Shown here piece after piece: positions 1,758 through 54,341 of a stretch of 64,000 bases of DNA. The position numbers and the translations under genes are program-made. The notes beneath the pieces were generated by a model. The model was given only the letters and a program-made list of their open reading frames with translations. It was not told the origin of the DNA and made no database searches. The first letter of the stretch is position 1. Every line of letters begins with the position of its first letter. This stretch comes from Streptomonospora salina (GTDB lineage: Bacteria > Actinomycetota > Actinomycetes > Streptosporangiales > Streptosporangiaceae). The stretch spans positions 4,176,501-4,240,500 of the forward strand of contig NZ_JACHLY010000001.1 in assembly GCF_014204715.1 (NCBI RefSeq). The letters run 5' to 3'.

Positions 1758-2123
1758 ATGGATGAATTGGTCGGCGCGTGGCGACTCGTGTCGTTCCGCA
1801 CCACAGATGCGGGCGGAGGCACCGACCCGCTCGGTGCCTCCCCCAGCGGGCTCCTCGTCTACGCCGCGACCGGGCATGTCGCGGTGAACATGATGCGCAC
1901 AGACAAGGAGGGCGGCACCCGATACATGAGCTACGCCGGGACATGGCGGCGCGAGCAGGAGCGAGTGGTGCACACGATTTCCGTCGCACCGGACCGCCGG
2001 TGGATCGGGTTGGATCAGGTGCGCGACGTGGAACTCGTCGGTGACCGCCTCCTCCTGTCGGGTCGCGGCCCGAGTACACATGCCGAGCGCAGCACATTGG
2101 AATGGCAGCGCATCACCTCGTGA
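1758..2123 (+). CDS. Small lipocalin-like domain protein
   Basis: 121-residue protein with the hallmarks of the lipocalin-like family found in actinobacterial and fungal biosynthetic clusters: N-terminal GAWRLVSF, a middle GLLVYAATGHVAVNM segment (the usual G-x-L-x-Y-x-x-x-G-x-x-S/A pattern) and C-terminal RSTLEWQRI. Start ATG 1758 lies 7 bp after the aldo/keto reductase stop. The next gene starts inside it (2102), a 22-nt overlap that implies translational coupling. Role unknown; relatives are thought to bind or process small hydrophobic metabolites. Confidence 0.7.
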   Translation: MDELVGAWRLVSFRTTDAGGGTDPLGASPSGLLVYAATGHVAVNMMRTDKEGGTRYMSYAGTWRREQERVVHTISVAPDRRWIGLDQVRDVELVGDRLLLSGRGPSTHAERSTLEWQRITS

Positions 2124-3505
2124 GGGACAGTGCATTGGGCAGCGGACAGCAATCTCCGACATCGGCTTCCGCGACGCTGGGCGAGGTCCGAGGCCCAGTC
2201 CTGTACCCGTCTCATGACGCGTACGAGCAGGAACGCATCGCGTTTCAAACCGCTTTTCCCCACGAGCCCGCGCTGATCGTCGGGGCGGAGGACGCCGATG
2301 ACGTGTGTGCGGCCGTCGCCCACGCGGCAGCGACCGGGCTCTCCGTTGCTGTGCAGGCCACCGGCCACGGGGTGACTCTCCCCCAGCAGGGTGGAGTACT
2401 GGTCAGCACACACCGGATGGCCGGCGTGCACATCGACCCGGAGCGGCAGGAAGCACGGATCGCGGCCGGCGTGCGGTGGTACCAGGTCATCGCGGCGGCC
2501 GCTCCGTACGGGCTCGCCCCACTGAGCGGATCATCACCTGACGTGGGCGCCGTCGGCTACATCCTGGGGGGCGGTCTTGGCCTGCTGGGCCGCGAGTTCG
2601 GTTTCGCGGCCGACCACGTCCGCTCGCTCGATGTGGTGACCAGCGACGCACGGCTGCGCACCGTGACCGCAACGAGCGAGCCGGAGCTGTTCTGGGCATT
2701 CCGTGGGGGCAAAGATCACCTCGGTATCGTCACAGCCATGACCATCCGGCTGTTCCCGGTCGACCGGGTCTATGGCGGCGGACTGTTCTTCGACGTGGCA
2801 CAGGCCCGCGAGGTCCTCGCCGAGTTCCGGGGCCTGACCACTCGCGCACCGGAGACCCTGAACGCTTCCCTCGGTATGCTGCGTTGCCCGCCGTTGCCGC
2901 AGGTGCCAGGTGCGCTGCGTAACAGGCATGTGCTGCATCTCCGGTTCGCCAGCACAAGTACGTCCGAGGCGGCCGCGGAACTGATCGCTCCGTTCCGGCG
3001 GATCGAGCCAGTTGTCCTGGGCGAGATCCGCGACATGCCCTACTCCGAATCGGGGACGATCTACAACGACCCTCGGGCACCGCACGCCTACCAGGGCAGC
3101 AACGTCCTGCTGGCCGACTTCCCTCCGGAGGCAGCCGAGATAACCCGGAGGGTGTGCGGTCCGGCCGCGCCGGTCCCGGTCGTCCTGGACATCCGCCATC
3201 TCGGTGGTGCTCTGTCCCGTCCTCCTGCTCAGCCGAACGCAGTCGGACACCGCGACGCGCAATACATCGTTCGGATCCTCTCTCCACTCGGGAATGTCGA
3301 GGTCAACGACGTTCGGCGCGTGCACCATCGGATCATGAACGGGCTGGCGGAGTGGGCCGTCGGCCGTTCCGCCAATTTTGTTTACGGGGCCGTGGGCGAC
3401 GGGCAGTTCGAGGCTTTCCATGAAAAGCCAACCCTGATGCGGCTGCGGGCGTTGAAGGAGAAGTGGGACCCGCAGGATGTGTTCGGCTGCATACCCCTGG
3501 CATGA
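2102..3505 (+). CDS. FAD-dependent oxidoreductase, berberine-bridge/PCMH type
   Basis: 467 residues. FAD-binding type 4 (PCMH) fold: the VQATGHGV loop near residue 84 carries the histidine that commonly anchors FAD covalently, followed by the glycine-rich VGYILGGGLGLLGREFG flavin segment and the ELFWAFRGGKDHLGIVT region. The C-terminus ends in the BBE-type KEKWDPQDVFG. The second, cysteinyl FAD anchor typical of bicovalent members is not obvious. The ATG at 2102 overlaps the upstream gene by 22 nt. Such enzymes oxidise alcohols or close rings in natural-product pathways, which fits the neighbouring thioesterase and reductase. Confidence 0.88.
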   Translation: MAAHHLVRDSALGSGQQSPTSASATLGEVRGPVLYPSHDAYEQERIAFQTAFPHEPALIVGAEDADDVCAAVAHAAATGLSVAVQATGHGVTLPQQGGVLVSTHRMAGVHIDPERQEARIAAGVRWYQVIAAAAPYGLAPLSGSSPDVGAVGYILGGGLGLLGREFGFAADHVRSLDVVTSDARLRTVTATSEPELFWAFRGGKDHLGIVTAMTIRLFPVDRVYGGGLFFDVAQAREVLAEFRGLTTRAPETLNASLGMLRCPPLPQVPGALRNRHVLHLRFASTSTSEAAAELIAPFRRIEPVVLGEIRDMPYSESGTIYNDPRAPHAYQGSNVLLADFPPEAAEITRRVCGPAAPVPVVLDIRHLGGALSRPPAQPNAVGHRDAQYIVRILSPLGNVEVNDVRRVHHRIMNGLAEWAVGRSANFVYGAVGDGQFEAFHEKPTLMRLRALKEKWDPQDVFGCIPLA

Positions 3506-3956: not shown

Positions 3957-5306
3957 ATGCAGGCCAGGGCCGACGGCACCGGAACCATCTCCCAGGCTGG
4001 CCGCCTGCTGCTGAGTGAGACCGTGCGCGCCACCGGCCTCGATACGGCGCTGCGCGCCGCCCTGGCCCGGTGACGCAAACCCGGCGCCGTCCATGATCCC
4101 GCCGAGACCTGCACCGATCTGGCCATCGCCCTCGCGCTGGGCGGCGACTGCCTGGCCGACGCCGCGCTGCTGCGGGCCGAACCCGGCCTGTACGGCCCGT
4201 GGCGTCCGACCCCACCGCCTCGCGCACCATCAACACGCTGGCCGCCGAACCCGAGCGGGCCCTGGCCGCGATCCGCGCCGCCCGCGCCCACGCGCGCGAA
4301 GCCGCCTGGACACGCGCACACCAGGCCCACCCGACCAGGACCGCCGGGTGGTCATCGACATCGACGCCACCCTCATCACCGCCCACTCCGACAAACAGAA
4401 CGCGGCCCCCACCTGGAAAAAGGGATACGGATTCCACCCGTTGGCCGCCTTCTGCGACCACGGGGCCAGGGCACCGGCGAACCCCTGACCGCCTTGCTGC
4501 GCCCGGGCAACGCCGGATCCAACACCGCCGACGACCACATCACCGTCACCGCCGCGGCGCTGAAGCAGCTGCCCCGCGCCCACCGCAGCGGCAGGAAGAC
4601 CCTCGTCCGCACAGACACCGTCGGCGGCACCCACACCTTCCTCGACTGGCTCACCCGGCGGGGCCGCTGGCTGTCCTACTCGGTGGGCATGACCATCACC
4701 GACGACATCCATACCGTCATCGGCCGCACCCCCGCCACCGCCTGGAGCCCGGTCTACGACGCCGCAGGCCAGGCGCGCACCGGCGCCTGGGTCGCCGAGA
4801 TCACCGGCATGGTCGACCTCACCGGCTGGCCGAGGGGGATGCGACTGATCGTGCGCGCCGAACGCCCGCACCCCGGCGCGCAACTGCGCATCACCGACGT
4901 CGACGGCAACCGCATCACCTGCTTCGCCACCAACACCCCGACCGGTCAGCTCGCCGATCTGGAGCTGCGCCACCGAAGCCGCGCCCGGTGCGAGGACCGC
5001 ATCCGCGCGGCCAAGGACACCGGTCTCGCCAATCTGCCTCTGCACGGTTTCGCCGCCAATCGGATCTGGCTCGAACTCGTGCTGCTGGCTCTTGACCTGG
5101 TGGCCTGGGCCCAGATGCTCGCCCTGGGCGGGCATGAGGCCCGCCGGTTGGAGCCCAAACGCCTGCGGCTGCGCCTGTTCAGCGCGGCGGCCCGGCTGGT
5201 GGCCACCGGCCGCCGCAAGCTCGTGCGGTTCAACCGGAGTTGGCCCTGGGCCGAGCTGCTGAGCGGCGCGATCGATCGGCTGCGGCTGCTGCAAGCCCCG
5301 ACTTGA
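3957..5306 (+). pseudogene. IS1380-family transposase, decayed
   Basis: Homology to IS1380-type DDE transposases runs through three frames. It begins MQARADGTGTISQAGRLLLS, meets a TGA at 4071-4073 where a Trp codon is expected, shifts frame near 4198, again near 4345 (VVIDIDATLITAHSDK, first catalytic Asp region) and again near 4480 (LLRPGNAGSNTADDH). It then runs to 5306 with CEDRIRAAKDTGLANLP, WLELVLLALDLVAWAQ and a normal end. One nonsense and about three frameshifts mean no functional product. Its terminal repeats and target duplication could not be delimited. Confidence 0.85.
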
Positions 5307-5512
5307 CCGCCGATGCCCGGCACCGACGACACGAAAGACCCTTCCGGAGCCCGTGGACTCCGGCGCCCCGCCCGAGCGAATCGGGCTGTTGTCACGCCCT
5401 GCCTCGGCTTTTCTCAACTCGTGAGGACAGGGACGGGTACTTCACCTCGACGCCGCTGCCTCACGAAAGATCGAGGCTAGGTGGAGTGCGCCCGCAACTG
5501 GGGCGCCGGTCG

Positions 5513-5637
5513 CTGACCTGGGACCAGGGCGCCGAGATGGCCGAGTACGGGCATATCGCCGATGCCACCGGGCTCGACGTCTACTTCTGCGACCCGAACG
5601 CGCCCTGGCAGCGCGCGGTCAACGAGAACGCCAATAG
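5513..5637 (+). pseudogene. IS30-family transposase fragment
   Basis: About 41 codons: LTWDQGAEMAEYGHIADATG, then VYFCDPNAPWQRAVNENAN, the well-conserved C-terminal core of IS30-type transposases including the catalytic Asp and Glu regions. Both sides end abruptly: upstream is unrelated sequence after the IS1380 remnant, and downstream the protein would normally continue into NGLLRQY-type sequence, which is absent. An orphan scrap. Confidence 0.75.
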
Positions 5638-5709
5638 GAGCTCAGCGCCACCAGTTCGACCGCAGTCCACGACCGAGCACGAAAGTCCTCCGCTGAATCT
5701 GGAGGTGAC

Positions 5710-11146: not shown

Positions 11147-14002
11147 ATGGTGAGTGATGACGAGCATCCCGATCTCCGCATCGGGGCAAAGGAACGTGGC
11201 CTCGGCGGGGCCGTGTACCCGGCGATCTGTCATGGTCTCGATGCTGCGGCTGTCTGCCTCGCATTGTGGGAAAACCACGTAGCACCCGGGCTCAGGGAGC
11301 ATCTGGCGCGCCGCTTTGGCGTCGATACGGACACCGCGGGGCGAATCGTGGCCTACTGGGCCGGGCTGCACGATATCGGAAAGATCGAACCCTACTTTCA
11401 AACGAAAAAGCTCTCCCTATCCCCATTGTCGGGTTTTCCCGCGGTGGGTCCCTCCTTGCCGCAAGGCCATGCGCTCACGGGGTGCCAATGGCTGGCGATG
11501 GCGCTGCCCGAGTCGGGGTATCCGCCGCCTGACGATGTCGATGACAGCCGCACCTCGCTGATCGCCCAGGTGGTGGGTGGTCACCACGGGCGCTACCCGG
11601 AGCGGCCCCATGCGCGCTACGACGTGCGGGAAGAGTTCGGCTTCGCCGAGGATGCATGGGACGAACAGCGCAGCGCCTATCTGCAGGCCGTCGGAACAGC
11701 CCTGGGCCATCCCCCCGTGCCGCCGTCGCTGGACGCTCCCACAGCGGTCGTCGTCACCGGGCTCATCGTTCTCGCGGACTGGCTGGCCAGCCAGGAACAC
11801 TTCCTACTCCAGCGGCTGCAGGACCTCCCGCGATCCGGGGCGCAGGCCGACCTCGCGGCCTACTTCGCACGTGTCCGTCCGGTGGCCGAAGGCCTGGTCG
11901 CCGACGCGGGGCTGGAGCCGCTCCACGTGCCCGCGGCCTCCTTCGCCGAGTCCTTCCCCGCCATCTCCGAACCGTTCGGCCTGCAGGCCTCGGTCGCCGA
12001 GCACCTGCCGGAACTCGTACACGGACCGGGGCTGCTCATCGTCACCGCCCCCACCGGCGAGGGCAAGACCGAGGTCGGAAAGCACGCAGCCGACCTCATG
12101 GGCGAGGCCGCCGGCCGCACCGGACGGGCGTACCTCCTGCCCACCATGGCCACCGCCAACAGCATGCACACCCGCGTCCGTCAGTACGCCGAGCGCCGCG
12201 CCGCCCATCCCCGCCCGCTGATGCGGCTGCACTCGATGGCCTGGCTCGAACAGGACCACACCCCGCCCACGCCGGGCTCCTCCTCCCAGGTGTTGACCAA
12301 CCACCCCGATACTTCCTTCGCGCCCACGGAATGGCTCTACGGAGGACTGCGCGGCCTGTTGGCCTCCTGGGGCGTGGGCACGTTCGACCAAGCATTGATG
12401 GCCGTGCTGCCCAGCCGGTTCAACGCGGTGCGGATGCTGGGCCTGGCCGGCAAGACCGTCGTCGTGGACGAAGCTCATGCGGTCGATCCCTACATGCAGA
12501 AGGAGCTGGAGCGCCTGCTGTGCTGGCTCGGCCGCCTCGAAGTCCCGGTGGTGCTGCTGTCGGCGACCTTGCACCGCTCGGTGGCCGATTCCTACGCCCG
12601 CGCCTACCTGGAAGGCGCTGGCGTCCTTCGGCGGCCCCGCCGCAGGGGTGTGGTGCCGCCGGTGATCGAGCACCTGTCCTATCCCGGGTGGGTGCACGTC
12701 TCGGCCGAGGCAGGGGCGCCTCACGTGATCAGCAACCCGGCGCCGATCACCGCGACCAAACGCAGCCCTCTGGACATGTCCCTGGAAGCCGTTCCCATCC
12801 GGGAAGAGAAGTCCGGCGCCGCGGCCCGCTCTCGACCCTCGCGCACCGCCGATCGGACGGAGGCGCTGCGCCGCCTGCTGGCGCCCGTGCTGAGCCGGGG
12901 CGGCACCGCGGCCGTGGTGTGCACGACCGTGAAGGAGGCCCAGGAGACCTACGATCTCGTCCGCCGCCTCATCGACGAGGCCGGCGGCGGGCCCGGCGAG
13001 GGCACCGAGCTGCACCTGCTGCATGCACGCTTCCCCCAATGGCAGCGTGACGAGATCACCGCGACCGTGCTGCACGCGTTCGGCAAGGACGGCGCCAAAG
13101 ATGGTGCACGTCCGCGCTCGGCGGTGCTGGTGGCCACCGCGATCATCGAGCAGAGCCTGGATATCGACCTGGACCTGATGGTCACCGACCTCGCGCCGCT
13201 GGCGCTGCTGCTGCAGCGGGCAGGCCGGTGCTGGCGCCACGAGCACCTGGGCATCATCGACCGCCACCGCCTCACCGCCCCGCGCGTGGCCGTGCTCGTG
13301 CCCGGTGAACCCGACGCCGACGCGATGCCCACCCCCTGGAGTGCGATCCATGCACCTTCCCTGCTGGAGCGCACCCACCGCCTGCTGCAGGAACACGGGG
13401 CCTGTGTGGCGATTCCCGACGACGTGCAGGCGCTGGTCGAGCAGGTGCATGACGACCCCGACCTCGCGCAGAACGTCAAACGCGAGTACGAACGCATCGG
13501 CGAGGCTATGGCCCAGCAGGCCCAGGCCAACACCGCCGTCGTCCCGCGCCCGGACCAACTCGCCGACCAGGCGGACCTGTCGGCGATGACGATGAACGAC
13601 TTCTCCGACGAAGCCGTGGCCACCCGCCTGGGCGCCGATTCGGTGCGCGTCCTGTGCTGCTTCGCCGACGCCGACGGTCGACTGTGGGCGGACTCGGCAC
13701 GCACCCGCGCCTTGGTCGGCACCGAACCCGGCCGCACGTCTCCGCTCAGCCCGGAGGAGGCCAAGGAGATCATGAGGCTGACCATCCCCGTCCAAGGCGG
13801 GCCGTGGTACCGCGACCTGAGCCCCCAAGACACCGCGGTGCCGCTCCCGTGGCGCAAACACAGCCACCTCAACCGGCTCCTGCTGATCCGCCAGCCCCTG
13901 GCCGAATCCGGCCAATGGAGCGAAGCGGTCCTGGGCGGACGCACCTGGTTGCTAGATAAGGAACGCGGACTCATCCACCGCCGCACCGGCTCCGGCGGAT
14001 GA
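11147..14002 (+). CDS. cas3: CRISPR-associated nuclease/helicase Cas3 (type I-E)
   Basis: 951 residues. The HD nuclease domain comes first: GLHDIGKIEPYF near residue 73, a later HALTGCQWLA and GGHHGRYPE near 145. The superfamily 2 helicase follows: TAPTGEGKTEVG (Walker A, about 300), VVVDEAHAVD (DExH, about 440), LLSATLH (about 470) and LLQRAGRCWRH (motif VI, about 690), then a C-terminal domain. ATG 11147 follows GGTAGGGGAG; the frame extends to 11039 but adds a non-homologous tail. Cas3 is recruited by target-bound Cascade and unwinds and degrades the invader. It heads the operon, 64 bp before cse1. Confidence 0.96.
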   Translation: MVSDDEHPDLRIGAKERGLGGAVYPAICHGLDAAAVCLALWENHVAPGLREHLARRFGVDTDTAGRIVAYWAGLHDIGKIEPYFQTKKLSLSPLSGFPAVGPSLPQGHALTGCQWLAMALPESGYPPPDDVDDSRTSLIAQVVGGHHGRYPERPHARYDVREEFGFAEDAWDEQRSAYLQAVGTALGHPPVPPSLDAPTAVVVTGLIVLADWLASQEHFLLQRLQDLPRSGAQADLAAYFARVRPVAEGLVADAGLEPLHVPAASFAESFPAISEPFGLQASVAEHLPELVHGPGLLIVTAPTGEGKTEVGKHAADLMGEAAGRTGRAYLLPTMATANSMHTRVRQYAERRAAHPRPLMRLHSMAWLEQDHTPPTPGSSSQVLTNHPDTSFAPTEWLYGGLRGLLASWGVGTFDQALMAVLPSRFNAVRMLGLAGKTVVVDEAHAVDPYMQKELERLLCWLGRLEVPVVLLSATLHRSVADSYARAYLEGAGVLRRPRRRGVVPPVIEHLSYPGWVHVSAEAGAPHVISNPAPITATKRSPLDMSLEAVPIREEKSGAAARSRPSRTADRTEALRRLLAPVLSRGGTAAVVCTTVKEAQETYDLVRRLIDEAGGGPGEGTELHLLHARFPQWQRDEITATVLHAFGKDGAKDGARPRSAVLVATAIIEQSLDIDLDLMVTDLAPLALLLQRAGRCWRHEHLGIIDRHRLTAPRVAVLVPGEPDADAMPTPWSAIHAPSLLERTHRLLQEHGACVAIPDDVQALVEQVHDDPDLAQNVKREYERIGEAMAQQAQANTAVVPRPDQLADQADLSAMTMNDFSDEAVATRLGADSVRVLCCFADADGRLWADSARTRALVGTEPGRTSPLSPEEAKEIMRLTIPVQGGPWYRDLSPQDTAVPLPWRKHSHLNRLLLIRQPLAESGQWSEAVLGGRTWLLDKERGLIHRRTGSGG

Positions 14003-44237: not shown

Positions 44238-44866
44238 CTACAGCAGCGTCTGCTGCTCGGGATCGTTGTGATGGCCGAACCGCTCGCCTGCGCTGGCGAC
44301 GAGCGCGTCGAAGTCAGGTGGTGACGGCCACTGCTCGGCGATGAGTTCCTGGAGCAGGAGTGCGGCGGCGACGGTGTCCCACAGGGCCCGGTGGGGGTGC
44401 CCGTGGGGCACCAGTTCGCCGACGCGTTCCGTCAGGGCGTAGCGGTCGACGAGGGCGGTCAGGGAACGTTGGGTTGCTCCAGTGAGCTTCGCGAGGCGCA
44501 GGGTGTCGATCACGCCGGCCGGGCGGATGCCGGGATAGCGCCGATGCAGCAGTCGCCGGTCGACGCCGACGTTGTGGCCCACGAGGTAGCGGTCGGTGAG
44601 GCGAGGGACGAGTTCGGGCCTGACCGCATCGGGTGGGGGAGCCTCGGCCAGGACGGCGTCGGTCAAGCCCGGTGAGATCCAGGGGCGGCGGGGAACAGGA
44701 CGGCGCGGGTTGATCAGCGTCTCGTAAGCCTGGCCCATGGCCGGGAGCCCGCCGACGAGGGGGATCGCGGCGATTTCGAGGATGGCCTCGTCCTCGCTGT
44801 CTGGGATCCGGTTCCTTCCAGGTCGAGGGCGATCAGGGGCGCCTGAGTCCAGGGCTGCTCGGTCAT
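44238..44866 (-). pseudogene. DEDDh 3'-5' exonuclease (DnaQ-like), frameshifted
   Basis: ATG 44866 opens MTEQPWTQAPLIALDLEGTG with the ExoI Asp-Glu; about 20 codons in (near 44805) the conserved reading moves to another frame, DSEDEAILEIAAIPLVGGLP. It then continues with LVGHNVGVDRRLLHRRYPG (ExoII) and HRALWDTVAAALLLQELI (ExoIII His/Asp) to 44238. Everything else is intact, so a single-base indel or a sequencing error is the only visible defect. Confidence 0.7.
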
Positions 44867-45208
44867 GGTGAGGGCTCCCGGCGTGGTGGTCAGTCGTCGT
44901 CGTAGCGGGCGTGGACGGCCGGCCGCTCGCGTGCGGCGCGGGACGGCTCGATAAGGCCCTACCGAGCAGACCGGTCTCCACCTGAGCCGATACTCACCTG
45001 GCGCGGTTCAGCTCACGGTTAGGGCGGAGGAATCGATCAGAACCTGGAGCGCTCCTCAGGGGCGGTCCGGTTACGCAATCATGGCCGTCGCCGCGCTTGT
45101 TCGCGGTCTCCGCGCCGCCTGGTCGGCCGCTGCCGACCGCCCGAGGATGTTCGCGCGGGGCTCGGCCGCACACGGTGTCCTGGCCGGTCGGCAGCAGCCG
45201 TCGCGTTC

Positions 45209-46384
45209 TCAGGTGAGGGTCAGGTCCACGTGGTGCTTGGGCACTACCCGGGCGGACCGGGACTGGTCTCCCACACGGGTTTCCGTGTCTTCGCGGGGGA
45301 CGACCGAGATGTGCAGGTGCTCCTGCCGGTCGGTGTCCCAGGCGCGAATGGTGTCGATCAGCCGCCGGCATAGCTGGTCGGCGGCGGGGCCGTGGCCGTA
45401 GGCGCCCGCCTCGCTGCGCCCGGGACCCAGCCGTCGGGTTGCGAGATAGGCCAGTGAGCCGTCTTCGACGATGGCGGGGCTGAGCATCGGGATGGCGGGA
45501 TTGGCCCGGCCGAAACGCACCGCCGACTCCTCGGCGGCGATCCGGCAGGTTCCGGCCTCGGACAGGATCAAGCGTCCCCAGATGCCGGTGATCGGCTCCA
45601 CGGCGACTTCCACACCCGACCAGGAGCTGTAGCGGGGCTCCTCCAGGACACCGGGCGGAAGGGCGCCGGGAATATCCTGGTCCTCGTCGCAGCGCAGGCG
45701 CACGTTCTCGCCCAGGTCGATATCGGTTTCGCCGTCGTCGCTGCCGCGCATGGGAATGAACCCGCACAACCGCACCGACTCGCTGGCCAGGCGCCGGTCG
45801 CGGTCGCGCCGCAACGCCACGGCCCGGGTGGTGCCGCGCAGCCGCAGCGGCACCACCAGCAGACCGCCCTCCACCAGCTGGTCGATCCACGCCGGGGGAA
45901 TGTCCCAGGCGCCGGCGGTCACGACGATGCGGTCGTAGGGCGCCTGCTCGGCCACGCCGGCATTGCCGTCGCCCTCCACCAGACGGATGCCCTCGACGCC
46001 GGCGCGGTCGAGGGCTTTGCGGGTGTGGGCCACGGCGTCGGCGTCGATGTCGACCGTGGTCACCTCGGCGCCCATGTGGGTGAGCAGGGCGGCGTTGTAG
46101 CCGGTGCCGGCGCCGACCTCCAGGACGCGGTCGCCCGGGCCGATCTCCAGTTGCTCCAGCATCAGGGCCACGACGTGGGGTGCCGAGGCCGAGCTGAGGC
46201 ATTCGCCGTCGGGTCCCGTCTTGGTGGGGACGTTGGTGTCCTCGTAGGCCTCGGTGAGGTCGGCGTCGGGCAGGAACAGGTGGCGCGGCACGGTGCGCAT
46301 CGCCGCTTCGACGGCGGGGGTGGTGATGAACCCGTCGTCGATGAGGGCGTCGACGCGGTGGTTGCGCAGTTGAGAGTCGTCCAA
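45209..46384 (-). CDS. PIMT-like methyltransferase of the FxLD lanthipeptide system
   Basis: 391 residues from TTG 46384 (GAGGAAAGG upstream), just after the LanC stop. The N-terminal half is a protein-L-isoaspartate O-methyltransferase: VPRHLFLPDADLTEAYED, SSASAPHVVALMLEQLE, LEVGAGTGYNAALLTHMG and RIVVTAGAWDIPPAWIDQL; a C-terminal extension of about 170 residues is typical of the lanthipeptide-linked form. Related LanS enzymes methylate a precursor Asp, leading to succinimide and isoaspartate. The Asp-Gly in the precursor core (T-G-D-G-C) is the obvious target (inference). Confidence 0.88.
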   Translation of the reverse strand: MDDSQLRNHRVDALIDDGFITTPAVEAAMRTVPRHLFLPDADLTEAYEDTNVPTKTGPDGECLSSASAPHVVALMLEQLEIGPGDRVLEVGAGTGYNAALLTHMGAEVTTVDIDADAVAHTRKALDRAGVEGIRLVEGDGNAGVAEQAPYDRIVVTAGAWDIPPAWIDQLVEGGLLVVPLRLRGTTRAVALRRDRDRRLASESVRLCGFIPMRGSDDGETDIDLGENVRLRCDEDQDIPGALPPGVLEEPRYSSWSGVEVAVEPITGIWGRLILSEAGTCRIAAEESAVRFGRANPAIPMLSPAIVEDGSLAYLATRRLGPGRSEAGAYGHGPAADQLCRRLIDTIRAWDTDRQEHLHISVVPREDTETRVGDQSRSARVVPKHHVDLTLT

Positions 46385-46410
46385 CGGTGTGGCCTTTCCT
46401 CGATAGTCGG

Positions 46411-47574
46411 TTATCCGGTGATCAGCAGGCAGGTGTCCCACGGGCTGGTGTGGGCGGCGGCGGGCAGCAGCGCCAGGGCTCGTCCGGAGGAGCCTTCCAA
46501 AAACGGGGTGCCGGTGCAGGCTGCGGCGCGCGCCTGGTGTTCCAGGTCGGGCAGGTGGCACGCCAGGGTGGCGGTGGGGTCGTCGGCGGCGGCGCGGCGC
46601 AGGCACTGCAGGAGTCCGGCGCGGCCGTGGCACAGCGATCCGTCCATGGTGGCGATGCGGTCGGCGTCGGCGGCGCAGGCCGCCAGGGCAGCCACGGCCG
46701 TGTCGCGGCGCCGTTCGTCGCCGGTGGCCAGCGCGGCGAGGTGGTGGGCGCGGGCCTGGCCGGGGGTGCCGTAGCACCAGGCCAGGCGCATCGGGTTGGT
46801 CTCGGCGGGTGCGGCGCCGCGGTACTGCGCTCGGGTGATCCAGCGGGGCCAGGAGGTGCCGTCGGTGTCGGTGGCGCGCCAGTCGTCCATCCAGGTGCAG
46901 ATGCGGGTGATGGCCCGGTGCTGGCCGGCGACGGTGACGCCGCGGCGCAGGGCCAGGGAGAGCAGGGCGAGAGGGCCGCTGATGCCGTGGGCGAGGCCGA
47001 GGTTGGCGTGGCCGCCGGGGAAGGCGCCGCGGCTGAGCGGGGCCCGCAGGCTCCACCAGCCGGGAAGGTGGTCGCCGTCGTGGTGCAGCGGGGCGGTGAG
47101 GCGCACCAGGTAGGTGAGGATATCGGCGGTGCGGCGACTGTCGGGAGCACGGGCCAACAGGTAGGCGCCGATGCCGGTCAGCCCGTTGATGACGTCGAAC
47201 TCGGACGGGGCGGGCAGGCGCCCGGCCTCGATGCGGTCGTGGGCCGCGGCCAGCCGGGTGCGGACCAGGGTGTCGATGTGGGCGTCGAGTTCGGCGATGG
47301 CCGGATGCGCAGGCGCCGTTGTGTGCAGCACGTAGGCCAGGGCGCCGGCACCGCAGTAGAGGGAACCGTCGGGGTGGGAGGAGACCGGGGTGCGGGTGGC
47401 GGCATCGAGCCATGCCCGAGCCGCCTCGGTGGTGCCGTTGCCGGAGCGCGCGGCGGCCAGGTGCAGCAGGGCCGGGCCCAGGGCCCCGTTGGCCAGAGAC
47501 TGGCCCCACCCGGGGCCGGGGTCGATGGCGGGAGGGGTGTGCAGGTGCGGGTCGTCGAGGACAGTGGGGGTCAT
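46411..47574 (-). CDS. lanC: LanC-like lanthionine cyclase
   Basis: 387 residues from ATG 47574, overlapping the LanB stop (ATGA). An alpha-barrel of GxxG repeats (GHANLGLAHGISGPLALLSL, GSLYCGAGALAY), with zinc ligands in MRLAWCYGTPGQA (Cys) and DGSLCHGRAGLLQC (Cys-His). It catalyses Michael addition of cysteine thiols to dehydroalanine/dehydrobutyrine in the precursor. The larger open frame upstream is a shadow over LanB. Confidence 0.93.
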   Translation of the reverse strand: MTPTVLDDPHLHTPPAIDPGPGWGQSLANGALGPALLHLAAARSGNGTTEAARAWLDAATRTPVSSHPDGSLYCGAGALAYVLHTTAPAHPAIAELDAHIDTLVRTRLAAAHDRIEAGRLPAPSEFDVINGLTGIGAYLLARAPDSRRTADILTYLVRLTAPLHHDGDHLPGWWSLRAPLSRGAFPGGHANLGLAHGISGPLALLSLALRRGVTVAGQHRAITRICTWMDDWRATDTDGTSWPRWITRAQYRGAAPAETNPMRLAWCYGTPGQARAHHLAALATGDERRRDTAVAALAACAADADRIATMDGSLCHGRAGLLQCLRRAAADDPTATLACHLPDLEHQARAAACTGTPFLEGSSGRALALLPAAAHTSPWDTCLLITG

Positions 47575-50504
47575 GAGGCGGCCTCGCGGGTGCGTGCGGT
47601 CTGGGACAGGGCGGCGTGGCGGGCCAGACGACGGCACGTGCGTTCGCTGTCGCGGTCGACGCCGAGCGCGCGGATGTGGTGCATGTGCAGCAGGGAGGTG
47701 AGCACCGTGTCGGTGGGCGGACCTCCGCCGGCGCGCAGCAGGGACCCGTAGTGGGTAAGGGCGCGGTGCAGCTCGTCGGTGAGAAGGCCGTGGCCGGAGT
47801 CGACCAGTGCGCGGGTCGCGGTCTGCAACTCCCGCTGCGGAGGCCGGGCCGGGGCCGGGGCGGGCTGGTCGATGAGCCAGTCCAGGCCTGCCGGCCACCC
47901 TCCGGTGAATGCGGCGGCCATGGCGGCCATGGTCGCGGCCGCATCGGGGCAGCCCTCGCCTGCGCCGGTACGCAGGCGGTCCACGACGGCGGCGGAGTCG
48001 GCGACGAAGACCGCCTCAGCTGCCTCCAGGGTTGTTCCCTGCCCGTAGCGGCCCGTCTCGGGGTAGTAGGTGTCCAGGCTCATCCGGGGTGAGAGGCCGG
48101 CCCGGCGCAGCCCTCGGGTCCAGGCGCCCAGGGCCGCGGCGACCTGCCCGGCGTGGGCGCCATCGGCTACACGCAGGCGCAAGCGCAGGTGGTCGGGATC
48201 ATCCGGACCGCGGTAGCGCAGGAACCACCAGTCGGGCTCGCCCGTCTCGGCCAGCAGAGCGGGCAGGTGCTGGGGCAGGATCGCGTTCTGGCGCTCGGGA
48301 TGGGCATAGATCTTGGCATACAGCCAGTCGGCGTCGTCGTCGGCGGGCAGATGGCCGCGATCACGGTCGCGCGTTTTCACCAGTGTCCTGCCCAGCGGGG
48401 AAGGCGCCGGCGGTGTCGCCGTGACCAGGGGGACGGCGAGTTCGTGGGCACGGCCCTGGATCCAGCCGCGGGCGTCGTCGGGCTCGGCCTCGGTGAGCAG
48501 CACGTGACCGGCCTGGTGCAGGCGCCTACGCAGCAGCGCCGTGTGGGCGGGCTCCTGTAGGTCCAGCGGCAGCACCTGATCGCCCTGGGCGAGCTCGACC
48601 TGCCGAGGCACCCGCCACCGGGCGCACCAGCGCTCCAACCCCGCGCGCCACTCCGTAGGGGTAGCGCCGTGCGGCGGAAGATCGTCGCTCTCCAGGCGCC
48701 AGCGCGCGGGCGACAGCACGGTGTGCCCGTAGCGCAGCCGCGGCAGGAACGCCAGGTCCGCGGCCGCGCCCCACGCGACGCGGTCGAACTGGGCCAGGCA
48801 CCCGCGCGGCAACTGGGCCAGGAACCGGGCCAGCGGCGGCGCCTGGTGCTCCAACGACAACGCGTGCACCACCTGGGGCTCGACAAGGCGGCGGGTGGGG
48901 GTGTGGACCAGGTGCAGGCGGTCCCGGTCGGCCATCACCGCCAGATCCTCCACCCTGATCAGCCCGTCGTCCTCGGGCGGGTACTCGCCGAGGCAGACGA
49001 GGTCGTCGAGGAAGCGCGGCGTGCGGGCGACATTGTCGGCACTCGGCCGACGTGCGGGGAACACCAGCTGGGCGCGGACGGCTCCTGCGGTGGCCGGGGG
49101 CAGACGGCGGTAGAGCGCGGCCAGGTCCGACTCCCACGGGCTGAACCGGCCCGTGAAGGTGCCCGCGGCCTGGCCCGGCCGGATGCGCAGGGTGAAATCG
49201 CCGGACTCGATCGCCTCCATCGAACGGGCCCGCACCCGCACCGCCGCCTCTACATGCGCAGGGATGCGCTGGGGATCCAGCGGTGCCACGGCCAGCCGGT
49301 CGATCGCGGCGTCGTCGAGGACGACCTCTTCGGTGCCCGTGGCCGCGGCTTCCTGGGCGAGCTGGAGCAGCCGCGAGTCGCGTTGCGGCGGTTCGTCGGG
49401 ACGGGGCGGCATCAACGATCCGGGGAAGGTGGGCGGATATCCCACGCCCATGTCGGCGTCGACGGCGTCCAGCAGCGGGACGAGGACCGCGGCGCCGTAG
49501 CGGTGGACGAACGCCTCGTAGTACCGGCGCCAGGCCGGGGAGCCGGTGGGATGGGGCGACAGCCGCAGCAGCGCGGTGACGCCCGCTTCCACTGCGGCGC
49601 CGACACGCTCGGGCACGGCCACGTCGCAGTCCAGGCGCAGGTCCCGTGTCACCGCAGCCGGTCCGGTGTCCTCGGGCGACACGGAAGGCGATGCTGCGGC
49701 GGCGTGCACGCGTGCTGCGGCCGCGGCGGCGTCGCCGATCTCATCAGCGCGGCAGCGGACGAGTTCGTCGCGCAGGTGGATCAGCGGGTCGGGGGCGGTG
49801 CTGGGCGGGCGCAGGCTCGACAGCAGGAATCCGTGGGCGAGCAGGCCACTGAGCAGGTCGGCGACGTGGTGGTCGGAGGCCGCGGGGAAGGCGGACCGCA
49901 CCCGCTCGGCGACCGTTGCCGACGACGTCGGAGCGGCCGCGGCGTGCAGTGCAGTGAGAACCGGGGCGGTGGCCGCCAGTTCGATGCGGCTCTGCCCGTC
50001 GGCCAGGACGAGGTAGTCGCCGCGCTGCCGGTGCCGGTTGTTGGCGACCACATCGAGCCGCTCGACCACAGCGGGCACGGCTTCGAGCTCGGCCACGACG
50101 GCTTCAAGCCAGGCGGCATCGGGACGCACCAGGGTATGGTGGTCGTGGCCCCACCGGATCTTGCCGCAGGGGGCGAAGGTGCCGGGGGCGGTCCCGGCGA
50201 ACAGGCCGAAGGGCGTAGCGCGTCCGGTGGCGCGCAGTAGGTATCCGACCAGGGCCGTGGCCGCACGGCGCACCTTGGCCTCCGGCGGCGTCCCGTCGCT
50301 GATGTTTCCCAGCGTGGTGGCCAGCGACGGACTGGCATCGGCGATCGCGGCGGCGATGGGCCCGTGCCACACCTGGCGAACCCAGGTGCACAGATCGTCG
50401 ACGCTGTCCGCGGCCAGGTCGGGCCACCGTGACGGCGCCTCGCCGGGATGGGCGCGGGCGGCGCGCAACAGGAAGGGGCCGTCCCGTCGGTAGTAGCGGT
50501 CCAT
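47571..50504 (-). CDS. lanB: LanB-type lantibiotic dehydratase, full length
   Basis: 977 residues from ATG 50504 behind GGGGGA (ATG 50519 is possible but lacks a site). The N-terminal glutamylation domain has RATGRATPFGLFAGTAPGTF and RYYEAFVHRYGAAVLVPLLD; the C-terminal SpaB_C elimination domain, DADWLYAKIYAHPERQNAIL, WWFLRYRGPDDPDHLRLRLR and SLDTYYPETGRYG, is fused as in class I LanB. It uses glutamyl-tRNA to dehydrate Ser/Thr in the precursor. Confidence 0.94.
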   Translation of the reverse strand: MDRYYRRDGPFLLRAARAHPGEAPSRWPDLAADSVDDLCTWVRQVWHGPIAAAIADASPSLATTLGNISDGTPPEAKVRRAATALVGYLLRATGRATPFGLFAGTAPGTFAPCGKIRWGHDHHTLVRPDAAWLEAVVAELEAVPAVVERLDVVANNRHRQRGDYLVLADGQSRIELAATAPVLTALHAAAAPTSSATVAERVRSAFPAASDHHVADLLSGLLAHGFLLSSLRPPSTAPDPLIHLRDELVRCRADEIGDAAAAAARVHAAAASPSVSPEDTGPAAVTRDLRLDCDVAVPERVGAAVEAGVTALLRLSPHPTGSPAWRRYYEAFVHRYGAAVLVPLLDAVDADMGVGYPPTFPGSLMPPRPDEPPQRDSRLLQLAQEAAATGTEEVVLDDAAIDRLAVAPLDPQRIPAHVEAAVRVRARSMEAIESGDFTLRIRPGQAAGTFTGRFSPWESDLAALYRRLPPATAGAVRAQLVFPARRPSADNVARTPRFLDDLVCLGEYPPEDDGLIRVEDLAVMADRDRLHLVHTPTRRLVEPQVVHALSLEHQAPPLARFLAQLPRGCLAQFDRVAWGAAADLAFLPRLRYGHTVLSPARWRLESDDLPPHGATPTEWRAGLERWCARWRVPRQVELAQGDQVLPLDLQEPAHTALLRRRLHQAGHVLLTEAEPDDARGWIQGRAHELAVPLVTATPPAPSPLGRTLVKTRDRDRGHLPADDDADWLYAKIYAHPERQNAILPQHLPALLAETGEPDWWFLRYRGPDDPDHLRLRLRVADGAHAGQVAAALGAWTRGLRRAGLSPRMSLDTYYPETGRYGQGTTLEAAEAVFVADSAAVVDRLRTGAGEGCPDAAATMAAMAAAFTGGWPAGLDWLIDQPAPAPARPPQRELQTATRALVDSGHGLLTDELHRALTHYGSLLRAGGGPPTDTVLTSLLHMHHIRALGVDRDSERTCRRLARHAALSQTARTREAAS

Positions 50505-50540
50505 AGGTGCATCCCCCATTCGTTGTGCGTGGGGCGGGTC

Positions 50541-50572
50541 GATGTGCGGGGGCCGCGCGGCCCCCGCACATC
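50541..50572 (-). terminator. 32-bp perfect palindrome between precursor and LanB genes
   Basis: GATGTGCGGGGGCC (50541-50554), GCGC, then the exact complement to 50572; no T-run. It lies 13 bp after the precursor stop and 37 bp before the LanB start, the usual position of the partial terminator that makes precursor mRNA more abundant than enzyme mRNA in lantibiotic operons. Confidence 0.75.
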
Positions 50573-50585
50573 GCGGGGGCGGTGG

Positions 50586-50801
50586 TCAGACACCGCTGTT
50601 GGCGCAGGCGCTGGCGCAGGTGGCGCCGCACCCGTCGCCGGTCCCGCACGGCACCAGGCCGTCATCGCTGACCGCCTCTGGCACCACCTGCACCTGCAGC
50701 GCGAAACTTGCGAGGGGGTTGTCGGCCTCTGTGCTGCCGCCGAAGGTGTCCTTCGCAGGCGGGGCCTGTCCGGCGGGGCCGTCGGGGATGGTGGCTGTCA
50801 T
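50586..50801 (-). CDS. FxLD-like lanthipeptide precursor
   Basis: 71 residues from ATG 50801 (GGAGTCCCAC upstream). Leader: DNPLASFALQVQVVPEA, a variant of the FxLD-V box (FALQV instead of FxLDV). Core: Cys52, Thr54, Asp56-Gly57, Cys58, Thr61, Cys62, Ser64, Cys66, Ser69 in PCGTGDGCGATCASACANSG, which matches the DDGCGSTCxSAC pattern of the family. Four Cys and four Ser/Thr could give up to four (methyl)lanthionine rings. It sits directly upstream of LanB, LanC and the PIMT-like enzyme. No export or protease gene is next to it. Confidence 0.88.
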   Translation of the reverse strand: MTATIPDGPAGQAPPAKDTFGGSTEADNPLASFALQVQVVPEAVSDDGLVPCGTGDGCGATCASACANSGV

Positions 50802-50888
50802 GTGGGACTCCTTCGGTCGTTGCGTTTCTGCATCTGTGCGCCGCTCGTCACCCGTTAGGGGGATCGGCGGAGGCGATCGGCTCGCCGA

Positions 50889-51719
50889 TCACGACTTCGG
50901 CGTTGGCGGGGTGAGGCGGCCGAGGCCGCCGTCGCCCCAGGCCTGCTCGGGTGGCCAGTAGGGCTTGTCCGGGTCGCGGCGCCACTCGGAGATGGGGACC
51001 ACGCCGGGCTCGACGGCTTCGAGCCCGGTGAAGAACCGGCGGATCTCGGCGTGGCTGCGCCCTTGCAGCGTCGCGGAGCTGCGGGCATAGACCTGCTCCA
51101 TGAACGCCACCCGCTCCGGGCTGGTCTCGTTCTCCAAATGGGAGACGGCGATGTAGGAGCCCGGGCACAGCCCGTCGCGCAGCGCGGCCACCACCTCGTA
51201 GGGATGGTCGTCGTCGGTGAGGAAGTGCAGGACGGCGATCATCAGCACGGCGACCGGCCGGGTGAAGTCGATCATCCGCCGGATCTCGGGGTGGTCGAGG
51301 ATGCCGGCCGGGTCGCGCAGGTCCGCCTCGGCGACCGCGGTGGTGGCGGGGTCGCCGGCCAGCAGGGCGCGGGCGTGGGCGGGCACGATGGGGTCGTTGT
51401 CGACGTAGGCGACGCGGGCGCCGGGGGCGTGGCGCTGGGCGACCTGGTGGACGTTGTCCTGGGTGGGCAGCCCGGAGCCGATGTCCAGGAATTGGCGCAC
51501 TCCGGCCTCGGCGGCCAGGTAGCGCACGACGCGGCGCAGGAAGTACCGGTTGGCGTGGGCGGTGCTGTGCAGCTCGGGGATACGTTCCAGGAGCTCGGTG
51601 CCGGCGTCGCGGTCGGCGGCGTAGTTGTCTTTACCGCCCAAGTAGAAATCGTAGAGGCGGGCGGCGCTGGGGGTGTGGGGGTCGACGCCGGTCGGGGGAG
51701 CGGGGGTGTGGTCGGACAT
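50889..51719 (-). CDS. SAM-dependent methyltransferase, DUF574 type
   Basis: 276 residues from ATG 51719. The conserved start PSAARLYDFYLGGKDNYAAD and HSTAHANRYFLRRVVRYLA, SAM loop QFLDIGSGLPTQDNVHQVAQ, AYVDNDPIVPAHARALL and RPVAVLMIAVLHFLTDDD are the DUF574 family pattern, frequent in actinomycetes and mostly of unknown substrate. It lies 87 bp upstream of the lanthipeptide precursor on the same strand, so modification of the peptide or of a P450 product is possible but unproven. Confidence 0.9.
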   Translation of the reverse strand: MSDHTPAPPTGVDPHTPSAARLYDFYLGGKDNYAADRDAGTELLERIPELHSTAHANRYFLRRVVRYLAAEAGVRQFLDIGSGLPTQDNVHQVAQRHAPGARVAYVDNDPIVPAHARALLAGDPATTAVAEADLRDPAGILDHPEIRRMIDFTRPVAVLMIAVLHFLTDDDHPYEVVAALRDGLCPGSYIAVSHLENETSPERVAFMEQVYARSSATLQGRSHAEIRRFFTGLEAVEPGVVPISEWRRDPDKPYWPPEQAWGDGGLGRLTPPTPKS

Positions 51720-51832: not shown

Positions 51833-53044
51833 TCAGGCGGCGCGGGCGGCGTCGGGGGTCAGGTTTATGGGCAGGCTGGCGGGGCGGCGGATCATGAAGC
51901 TGGGCAGCGGCGGCACCTCGTCGGCCACTGCGAGGTGGGGGAAGCGAGTGAACAGGCCCGACAGGGCCGTTTCGAGTTCGAGGCGGGCGAGGTGGGCGCC
52001 CAGGCAGTAGTGGATGCCGTGGCCGAAGGCCAGATGCCCCTTGGGGTTGCGGGTCACGTCGAAGGCCTCGGGGTCGTGCCACCGGTGGGGGTCGAGTCCG
52101 GCGGCGGAAATGCCCAGCAGCACCCCGGTCCCGGCGGGCAGGTCCGTGCCGCACAGTTCGACCTCGCGGGTGGTGAAACAGATCGGCAGGGTGGCTACGG
52201 AGCTGTAGCGGCGCAGGCACTCCTCGATCGCCGGCGCCCAGCCCACCTGTCCGGACAGGACGAGGTCGCGCTGGTCGGGGTGGGTGGCCAGGGCCTGGGC
52301 GGCGTTGAGTAGGGCGCCCAGGGTGGTGTCGAAACCGGCGACGATCAGCAGGTAGCAGGTGTCGATCGCGTCGGCCCGGGACACGTCGCCCGCCCGGTGG
52401 GACGTGGCCAGCAGGGAGAGCAGGTCGCCGCCGGCGGCCTCAGGCGGGGTGTGGTCGAGCAGGTCGGCGATGTAGGCGCGGGCCTCCGCGTGCACCCCCG
52501 GGTCGGACAGGGCGAAGGCGCGGGTGGTGATGTCGCTCAAGCGTTCGGCGTGCTCGGGGCCGAGCCCGAAGAGGTCGAGGAACACTTCCACGGTCAGTTG
52601 CCAGGCGAAGTCCAGCAGGTCCACCCGCGGCCCGGCGGCTTCCATCCCGTCGAGGAGGCGGTCGGTGACGGCCTCGATCCGGCCCCGGCGGTGTTTCACG
52701 GCGGCCGGGGTGAAGGCGGGGCGCAGGAGCCGGCGGATCTGTTCGTGTTCGGTGCCGTTGAGGGCGAGGAGGCTGCGCAGGTCTCCCACCAGCGCCACCA
52801 GCGGATGGGACCGGTCCACCTCGCCGCGGTGCAGGGCGGGCCAGTTCTCGGCCCCGCGCAGGAACGTGCCGCTGGTGTCGCCTTGGACGGTGCGCAGGGC
52901 CTCGTCACTACAGGCGGCCCACAGGTGCAGGCCGGCTAGCTCGACCGCAGCCACCGGGCCAGCCGCTCGAAGACGCCGGGTGTTGGTGGCGGGGTCGTCG
53001 AGTTCGAGGCGGATGCGCGACGTGGGGCGGGGGACGGATTCCAC
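51833..53044 (-). CDS. Cytochrome P450, CYP154-like
   Basis: 403 residues from GTG 53044, with GGAGGACCC before it. I-helix LIVAGFDTTLGALLNAAQ with acid-alcohol pair, ExxR in APAIEECLRRYSS, and the heme loop LAFGHGIHYCLGAHLARLEL (Cys347). Complete and apparently active. Its first 109 bp lie inside the upstream P450 gene, in another frame. Pairs of a normal P450 with a CYP157-like partner are known in actinomycetes (conservon operons), though the other conservon genes are not present here. Confidence 0.9.
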   Translation of the reverse strand: MESVPRPTSRIRLELDDPATNTRRLRAAGPVAAVELAGLHLWAACSDEALRTVQGDTSGTFLRGAENWPALHRGEVDRSHPLVALVGDLRSLLALNGTEHEQIRRLLRPAFTPAAVKHRRGRIEAVTDRLLDGMEAAGPRVDLLDFAWQLTVEVFLDLFGLGPEHAERLSDITTRAFALSDPGVHAEARAYIADLLDHTPPEAAGGDLLSLLATSHRAGDVSRADAIDTCYLLIVAGFDTTLGALLNAAQALATHPDQRDLVLSGQVGWAPAIEECLRRYSSVATLPICFTTREVELCGTDLPAGTGVLLGISAAGLDPHRWHDPEAFDVTRNPKGHLAFGHGIHYCLGAHLARLELETALSGLFTRFPHLAVADEVPPLPSFMIRRPASLPINLTPDAARAA

Positions 53045-54267
53045 GGGTCCTCCTGGGTGAGGGGGCGGGCGGGGGTGAACGTCAGGGGCAGGCTGCGCCG
53101 TCCGGCGATGACCGTGGAGGCGCGCCGCGGAGCGTCGTCCTGGTCCAGGCGCAGGTCGGGCAGGCGCTGCTGGAGGCGCTCCACCCCGGTCTGGGCGATG
53201 GCCAGGGCGATGTCGCGGCCCAACTGCGGGCAGCCGTGCGGGCCCATGCCGAACACGGGATAGGCGCGGTTGGAGGGCTCGGGCGGGGCGGTACGCAGCT
53301 GGTGGCGTTGGGCGGCGCCGAAGCCCATGATCAGGCAGTCGCCCCGGCGCAGCCGGTAGCCGCCCACCTCGAGGCCGTCGGCGGTGGGGAAGCGGCCCAC
53401 CAGAGTCTCCAAGGGCGGGTGGCGCCACACCCCCTGGTTGAGGGTCTCGCTGATCAGCCAGGTGGAGCCGACCATGTGCAGCCGCGACGTCTGCAACAGG
53501 TCGGCCAGCGTGTTGGCGAGCGCGTGGGCGATGGGGTCGTGGGCGGCCGCCATGATCAGCGCGAGCTGGTCGCGGATCTCCGCATCCTCCAGCCCGCGGG
53601 CGACCATCCCGCTGGTGATGTCGCGGCCCGGGTGGGCGCGGCGGTGAGCGGCGTGGCCGATCAGGAGGTCTTGGAGCTGGTGGTGGGCGTGGCCGGCGTC
53701 GGCCTCGCCGTCCCAGAGCCGCTGCATGGCCATGCCCACCCGCAGCCCCGCGGGCTGGTCCATGCCGAACAATCGGCACAGCACCAGCAGCGGCAGCACG
53801 GAGGCGTACTCGGAGACCACGTCGGCCCGGCCCCGGGTGCAGAACCCGTCGATGACGACATCGGCGATCTCGCGGATGCGGGCGGGCAGCAGCGCCAGGG
53901 ACACCTCCTGCAAGGCGCCGGTCAGCGCCGTGCGCAGCCGCTCGTGTTCGGCGCCGTCGACCGACAAGGCGTTTTTGCGGGGCGGATACAGCGCCTGCAG
54001 CGGGCTGGCCTGCGGGATGGTGCCGTTCCACAAGTCGCGCCAGGCGCGGGGGTCGCGGGCGAAGGACCGCTCGTCTTTGAGGACCCGGTGCAGCACGGGC
54101 AGGCTGATCATGAGCCAGGCGGGCACGCCTTTCTCCAGCTCGACGGGCACCAGCCCGCGCTCGAAGTGCTCCCCATCGAGGCGGTCCAGGGCGGTGGGCA
54201 GGTCCAGGGCGGGATCGTCCAGCCGCAGCAGCGGCGGTGGCGGTGGGGGTTCGGGGGCCGGCGGCAT
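52936..54267 (-). CDS. Divergent cytochrome P450, CYP157-like, ExxR altered
   Basis: 443 residues from ATG 54267. Heme loop YPVFGMGPHGCPQLGRDIAL keeps the axial Cys346. The K-helix ExxR is replaced: ISETLNQGVWRHPP has Glu but Asn where Arg belongs. The I-helix MAAAHDPIAHALANTLADLL lacks the usual Thr. This recalls CYP157 enzymes, known to lack ExxR. The last 35 residues past TFTPARPLTQED overlap the next gene's start and are probably non-conserved. No frame damage elsewhere, so loss of the motif is not simple decay. Confidence 0.85.
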   Translation of the reverse strand: MPPAPEPPPPPPLLRLDDPALDLPTALDRLDGEHFERGLVPVELEKGVPAWLMISLPVLHRVLKDERSFARDPRAWRDLWNGTIPQASPLQALYPPRKNALSVDGAEHERLRTALTGALQEVSLALLPARIREIADVVIDGFCTRGRADVVSEYASVLPLLVLCRLFGMDQPAGLRVGMAMQRLWDGEADAGHAHHQLQDLLIGHAAHRRAHPGRDITSGMVARGLEDAEIRDQLALIMAAAHDPIAHALANTLADLLQTSRLHMVGSTWLISETLNQGVWRHPPLETLVGRFPTADGLEVGGYRLRRGDCLIMGFGAAQRHQLRTAPPEPSNRAYPVFGMGPHGCPQLGRDIALAIAQTGVERLQQRLPDLRLDQDDAPRRASTVIAGRRSLPLTFTPARPLTQEDPWNPSPAPRRASASNSTTPPPTPGVFERLARWLRSS

Positions 54268-54341
54268 GGGGGGAGTCGCTTTCGCACGGGAGAGAGGGGG
54301 CGGTCGAGGGCACCTGGCCCGGTTCCGGGGGTGGCGCGGTC

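Follow-up and report, generated by a model that had tools for sequence, protein, structure and literature searches.

The minus strand of the window (the whole 64,000-nt stretch of DNA analysed) carries four consecutive genes, in the order lanA-lanB-lanC-lanS from position 50801 down to 45209 (Table 1). The earlier note had described them as a precursor, a full-length LanB, a LanC and a PIMT-like methyltransferase in tandem, with a 4-nt overlap between LanB and LanC, and the open reading frames, the overlap itself (ATGA) and the profile matches all agree with that description. An AAGGAG sequence stands ahead of the lanA ATG, and all four reading frames are intact. Two starts were considered for lanB, and the one at 50504 is likelier because the closest homologue begins at the equivalent second Met.

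Table 1. Genes and sequence features of the lanthipeptide cassette (positions in the window).
Feature	Position	Strand	Description and basis
lanA	50586-50801	minus	71-aa FxLD-family precursor; ORF read, TIGR04363 match, G011 orthologue 71% identical
lanB	47571-50519, or 47571-50504 (likelier)	minus	full-length class I dehydratase; PF04738 and PF14028
lanC	46411-47574	minus	cyclase, 387 aa; PF05147
lanS	45209-46384	minus	PIMT-like O-methyltransferase, 391 aa, TTG start; TIGR04364, PF01135
Leader recognition box F33-A-L-Q36-V37	50691-50705	minus	position derived from residue numbers, checked against the DNA
Core motif G53-T54-G55-D56-G57-C58	50628-50645	minus	predicted MeLan ring T54-C58 with LanS target Asp56; derived from residue numbers
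Perfect 17-bp inverted repeat, lanA stop to lanB start	50540-50573	minus	predicted RNA hairpin

The precursor scored 35.8 bits against the NCBIfam model of FxLD precursors (TIGR04363), above the curated cut-off of 30, and LanS scored 390.9 bits against the equivalog-domain model of the FxLD-system methyltransferase (TIGR04364), above its cut-off of 320. Pfam E-values were 1.9e-173 (PF04738) and 1.3e-43 (PF14028) for LanB, 4.2e-38 (PF05147) for LanC and 1.4e-45 (PF01135) for LanS. A LanB with both the N- and the C-terminal dehydratase domain is present together with a LanC, as a class I pathway requires, and these curated models and domains uphold by homology the assignment to the FxLD family of class I lanthipeptides. 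Structural homologues of LanB were found in the PDB (5ehk, 9g04, 4wd9 and 6m7y), while the precursor had no PDB match at E up to 10. Residues C267, C315 and H316 of LanC occupy the places of the zinc ligands, and presumably have the roles of those in NisC. In LanB, R779, R781, E821 and R824 align with R784, R786, E823 and R826 of NisB, which are among the elimination-domain residues named in passages of PMC9486935.

The cluster is intact, is unexceptional for the FxLD/LanS group and is nearest in layout to olv of Streptomyces olivaceus NRRL B-3009 (OlvA, OlvB, OlvC, OlvSA), which likewise combines a precursor, a full-length LanB, a LanC and a LanS lacking an extra lyase domain. According to excerpts of PMC9486935 and PMC13001092, the modified Asp of the olv product lies in the N-terminal MeLan ring and there is an extra N-terminal Lan, which the window product may also have. 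The two differ in that the window leader box has a Gln, and their residue-level comparison rests on CoiA1 numbering, OlvA itself being outside the alignment. In coi of Streptomyces coelicolor A3(2) (CoiA1, CoiB, CoiC, CoiSA), CoiSA carries a fused second glutamyl lyase domain; a Pfam search of the window LanS found the PCMT domain (PF01135) but neither PF14028 nor a fused glutamyl lyase domain. The cluster also resembles the NCBIfam FxLD system, grouped here with families I 1-4 among the class I precursors of PMC7268733 (excerpts), both in exceeding the two model cut-offs and in having a PF01135 methyltransferase next to a precursor with the conserved core Asp, and differs from it in the fourth letter of the name-giving box, which is Gln.

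The core peptide and its predicted modification

The potential ring residues of the presumed core are S45, T54, T61, S64 and S69, along with C52, C58, C62 and C66. The stretch from T54 to C66 reads T-G-D-G-C-G-A-T-C-A-S-A-C, just as first reported, and its placement in the FxLD family is consistent with the TIGR04363 score. Thr is found at the T54 place in 177 of 184 alignment rows and Cys at the C58 place in 183 of 184, and the Asp56 place is occupied by Asp in 170 of 183 precursors, by Asn in nine and by Gly in four. Cores of lanthimiditides (aspartimide or isoAsp lanthipeptides) are marked in passages of PMC10787088 by a TxDGC motif, which is present here as T54-G-D56-G57-C58, with the PIMT homologue lanS in the same gene run.

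The rings of CoiA1 are given in the same excerpts of PMC9486935 as T43-C47, T50-C55 and C51-T57. Its T43, C47, T50, C51 and C55 are spaced as T54, C58, T61, C62 and C66 of the window precursor, but the place of the sixth ring residue, Thr57, is taken by Asn68, with S69 next to it, so that a C-terminal ring would need either S64 or S69, the latter one residue further on. The Cys of the extra N-terminal Lan of mOlvA is Asn in CoiA1 (PMC9486935, excerpts), and C52 is taken to be its counterpart in the window precursor; at this place, which is two residues ahead of the ring Thr, Cys (87 of 184 rows) and Asn (32 of 184) are the commonest letters. Although S45 lies seven residues before C52, an S45-C52 ring is weakly supported, since Asn is found at the S45 place in a relative with a Glu box (G218, see below) and Ser or Thr occurs 3-12 residues before the C52 place about equally often with that Cys (73 of 83 precursors) as without it (78 of 99). 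The Ser/Thr count alone is accordingly no argument for a conserved N-terminal ring. A product with up to four thioether rings, as originally suggested, is possible by homology, the olv product having the N-terminal Lan in addition to three rings placed as in coi (PMC9486935, excerpts).

The locus is highly likely to encode a class I lanthipeptide pathway of the FxLD/LanS type, with olv as the closest known layout, and its steps can be proposed from homologous systems. LanB would bind the leader via the F-x-L box, with Gln36 in the place of Asp, and would dehydrate Ser and Thr residues of the core. LanC would then add Cys to form rings, most likely T54-C58, T61-C66 and C62-S69 (overlapping T61-C66), and perhaps an N-terminal S45-C52. 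Following cyclisation, LanS would methylate Asp56 within the T54-C58 ring, and the ester would give an aspartimide and then mainly isoAsp. This order of events parallels excerpts of PMC13001092, in which OlvSA modifies the peptide after cyclisation and opening of the aspartimide yields 70-80% isoAsp. Asp56-Gly57 had been singled out as the modified site, and homology with the olv and coi products, together with the prevalence of Asp at this place, argues for it as the likely LanS site. The product of the cluster is very probably a peptide that contains rings and one rearranged aspartate.

The region between lanA and lanB (50520-50585) is predicted to fold as RNA with an energy of -36.2 kcal/mol (z -4.11). 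The corresponding gap in the nearest relative found (G011) contains a hairpin that differs in sequence (z -1.70, or -3.01 on a shorter stretch), and across 125 lanA-lanB gaps of the family (the 129 LanB/precursor pairs described below less four of unsuitable length) z is -2 or lower in 79, and 89 have a stem of at least 10 bp. The hairpin may act in attenuation or processing, and would probably reduce enzyme expression compared with that of the precursor.

In nine of the 183 precursors Asn-Gly stands where the others have the in-ring Asp, seven of them reading T-D-N-G-C and two T-S-N-G-C. They come from loci L090 (G000:C1:2709000-2728000), L103, L264, L307, L308, L309, L310, L311 and L312, of which L090 holds the third FxLD system in the genome that includes the window. 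All nine loci have a LanS homologue (tblastn, E up to 1e-10), and L090 has two (4517-5686, and 2120-3136 on the minus strand); LanC was not found in L310, which is near a contig end, or in L312, where the LanB match is partial. Asn-Gly can deamidate via the same succinimide without methylation. These precursors suggest either a succinimide formed by Asn deamidation or a shifted Asp target, and in the T-D-N-G-C group the neighboring Asp could be the target of LanS instead. The passages of PMC13001092 on asparagine and deamidation contain no mention of Asn-Gly precursors. Their occurrence with LanS is more surprising than the Gln box, and may be the more interesting lead.

Relatives and genomic surroundings

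The gene order lanA-lanB-lanC-lanS is kept in two related clusters. In G011, presumably Nocardiopsaceae bacterium YIM 96095 (RJMB01000006.1), the enzymes share 64% (LanB), 70% (LanC) and 68% (LanS) identity with those of the window, and the precursor has a Gln box (FTLQV) and a near-identical core, while its N-terminal leader has diverged. The equivalent values for G218, which has a Glu box (FALEV), are 48%, 55% and 59%. A search of genome contigs with an alignment of two LanBs returned one locus, that of the G011 relative, although its strict patterns would miss distant LanBs. The G011 cluster differs from that of the window in having a second LanS (L091, 3260-4276, minus) and a degenerate second precursor (12756-12959, minus) nearby, the latter reading TEDQYGTTC, in which Tyr replaces the ring Cys, and the compared flanking genes are not common to both. 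G218 also has a second precursor (L313, 4853-5023, plus), in tandem right after the Glu-box one and with the core SDGGC.

Between the window and G011 precursors, nine of the 40 codons from the box to the end differ synonymously and five change the amino acid. In the last 22 codons, dN and dS are 0.05 and 0.45, as against 0.26 and 0.78 for LanB, and at the sequence level the precursor core is under constraint.

When window ORFs (38-58 kb, at least 60 aa, GC3 >0.7) were compared with a 19.9-kb stretch of G011, no match was seen outside the cassette and the frames overlapping it. The unit common to the two is therefore the four-gene cassette, with no common transporter or protease to account for export and leader removal, which counts against the proposed pathway. 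Directly upstream on the same strand is a gene for a PF04672 SAM-dependent methyltransferase (50889-51719, minus), which is probably outside the cassette since it too has no match in the G011 stretch. Beyond it, an ORF at 51833-54313 (minus) matches only positions 327-439 of the 462 in the cytochrome P450 model, and may be truncated or frame-shifted. Directly after the cassette is an exonuclease-like gene (44238-44981, minus; PF00929). A relative of its product (71% identity over 168 aa; L094, 15263-15766) is encoded in G004, of the same genus, directly after another FxLD cassette with an Asp box and a LanB of 43% identity. Because the exonuclease-like gene follows both, two diverged FxLD cassettes may occupy the same chromosomal place in the genus.

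The Gln leader box and its interpretation

The leader box of the window precursor reads FALQV (residues 33-37), which the ORF confirms, with Gln36 where most relatives have Asp. Precursors were gathered from the window's genome and its relatives by searches with TIGR04363, P0001 and P0002, drawing on part of the matches listed, which for one search were its best-scoring ones; identical aligned segments were merged, giving 184 rows, and leaving out the spurious L004 gave 183. The aromatic-x-Leu part of the box (F33-A-L35) is well conserved, with Phe, Tyr or Trp in 161 of 184 rows and Leu in 180. At the fourth place Asp was found in 158 of the 183 distinct precursors and another letter in 25 (Asn 19, Gln 2, Glu 2, Ala 1, Val 1), boxes far from FxLD being under-counted as they score lower. 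The place had been called normally acidic; this is true of the predominant Asp, but with Asn in 19 precursors it is not strictly so. Since the curated model was passed without it, Asp at this place is not taken as defining, even though the family name implies it. A literature search for FxLQ, FxLN or FxLE gave unrelated word matches among the matches listed, and excerpts of PMC12710340 describe substitutions in the FxLD motif as mainly hydrophobic, while those of PMC9303977 give FXLD/E as the motif in another pathway.

The alignment with FxLD precursors that the earlier note had proposed found the Gln variant twice, in the window and in G011. LanB/precursor pairs were assembled from 163 rows less 34 without an aligned residue (second matches within a LanB), leaving 129, with G218 scored by the first, Glu-box, member of its tandem precursors. 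In a FastTree phylogeny of these 129 LanBs, those of the window, G011 and G218 form one clade (99 local support), and at least 12 switches of the box between Asp and another letter are needed over the tree. From the count, the single clade with G011 and the repeated changes of state, the Gln box is real, rare and inherited, at a variable place. That it sets off a separate pathway, as had been implied, is not supported, given that the place is labile, the nearest relative has the same letter and the FxLD model is still passed; it is a minor leader variant that merits a line in the alignment and no new class.

The Gln box is probably a product of near-neutral drift, in which the fourth place adds little to recognition and Glu or Gln replaced Asp within a single small clade, a reading compatible with the proposed pathway. 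The number of changes on the tree, the share of other letters among the precursors and the Gln, Gln and Glu of the single clade all point this way. Against it, Gln has been kept despite a 36% difference between the two LanBs, so that some selection is possible, although two sequences are too few to judge by.

It is unlikely that the Gln box is instead a specificity switch, by which LanB moved off an Asp-Arg contact and processes only its own precursor beside two other FxLD systems. The window's genome does have three LanB matches, each with a precursor (the third at 28.8 bits, below the cut-off), and the boxes of the other two systems are FDLD and LNLD. The contact would be that between the leader Asp and Arg154 of NisB, although 'Arg154' was absent from the papers listed by a literature search. 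The aligned residue is Tyr169 in the window LanB, a point that also counts against the proposed pathway. Arg is present there in 83 of the 104 LanBs whose precursor has an Asp box, and in 9 of the 25 whose precursor has another letter (Fisher p 4.1e-5, 129 pairs). However, in eight tree-independent pairs an average of 1.7 agree, 0.3 disagree and 6.1 show no difference, and the other Gln-box LanB, of G011, keeps Arg; since the tree-independent pairs do not bear out the Fisher result and G011 retains Arg, the association is only a hint. Strict compensation between the box letter and the Arg154 place was rejected: the tree-independent pairs were not significant in either direction (nine pairs in reverse, 1.9 against 0.1), and the two Gln-box LanBs have Tyr and Arg. 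We similarly regard it as improbable that the Gln/Glu-box clade has rewired its leader recognition, with LanB reading a neutral amide in place of the Asp-Arg contact and no cross-talk with the two other FxLD systems of the genome; if true, this would provide an orthogonal LanA/LanB pair.

That the cluster is silent or decaying and yields no product is very unlikely: a scan of 45000-51000 found no sigma-70-like promoter (a weak point, as it covers one promoter type) and the family is uneven in the genus, two (G002 and G005) of five other same-genus genomes being without an FxLD precursor match, but the four frames are intact, the checked residues are present and the core is under constraint.

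The cluster is an added member of a widespread family. Among the class I lanthipeptide precursors of Actinobacteria, those beside a PIMT-like methyltransferase are described in excerpts of PMC7268733 as the most abundant; 1305 such clusters are counted in those of PMC10787088, and of the 341 genomes in the family to which the window belongs, 120 had an FxLD precursor above the cut-off. At the time of PMC9486935 (excerpts), no function had been determined for the olv and coi products. The cluster shows that the fourth letter of the box varies, and natural Gln, Glu and Asp variants are available to probe the role of that residue.
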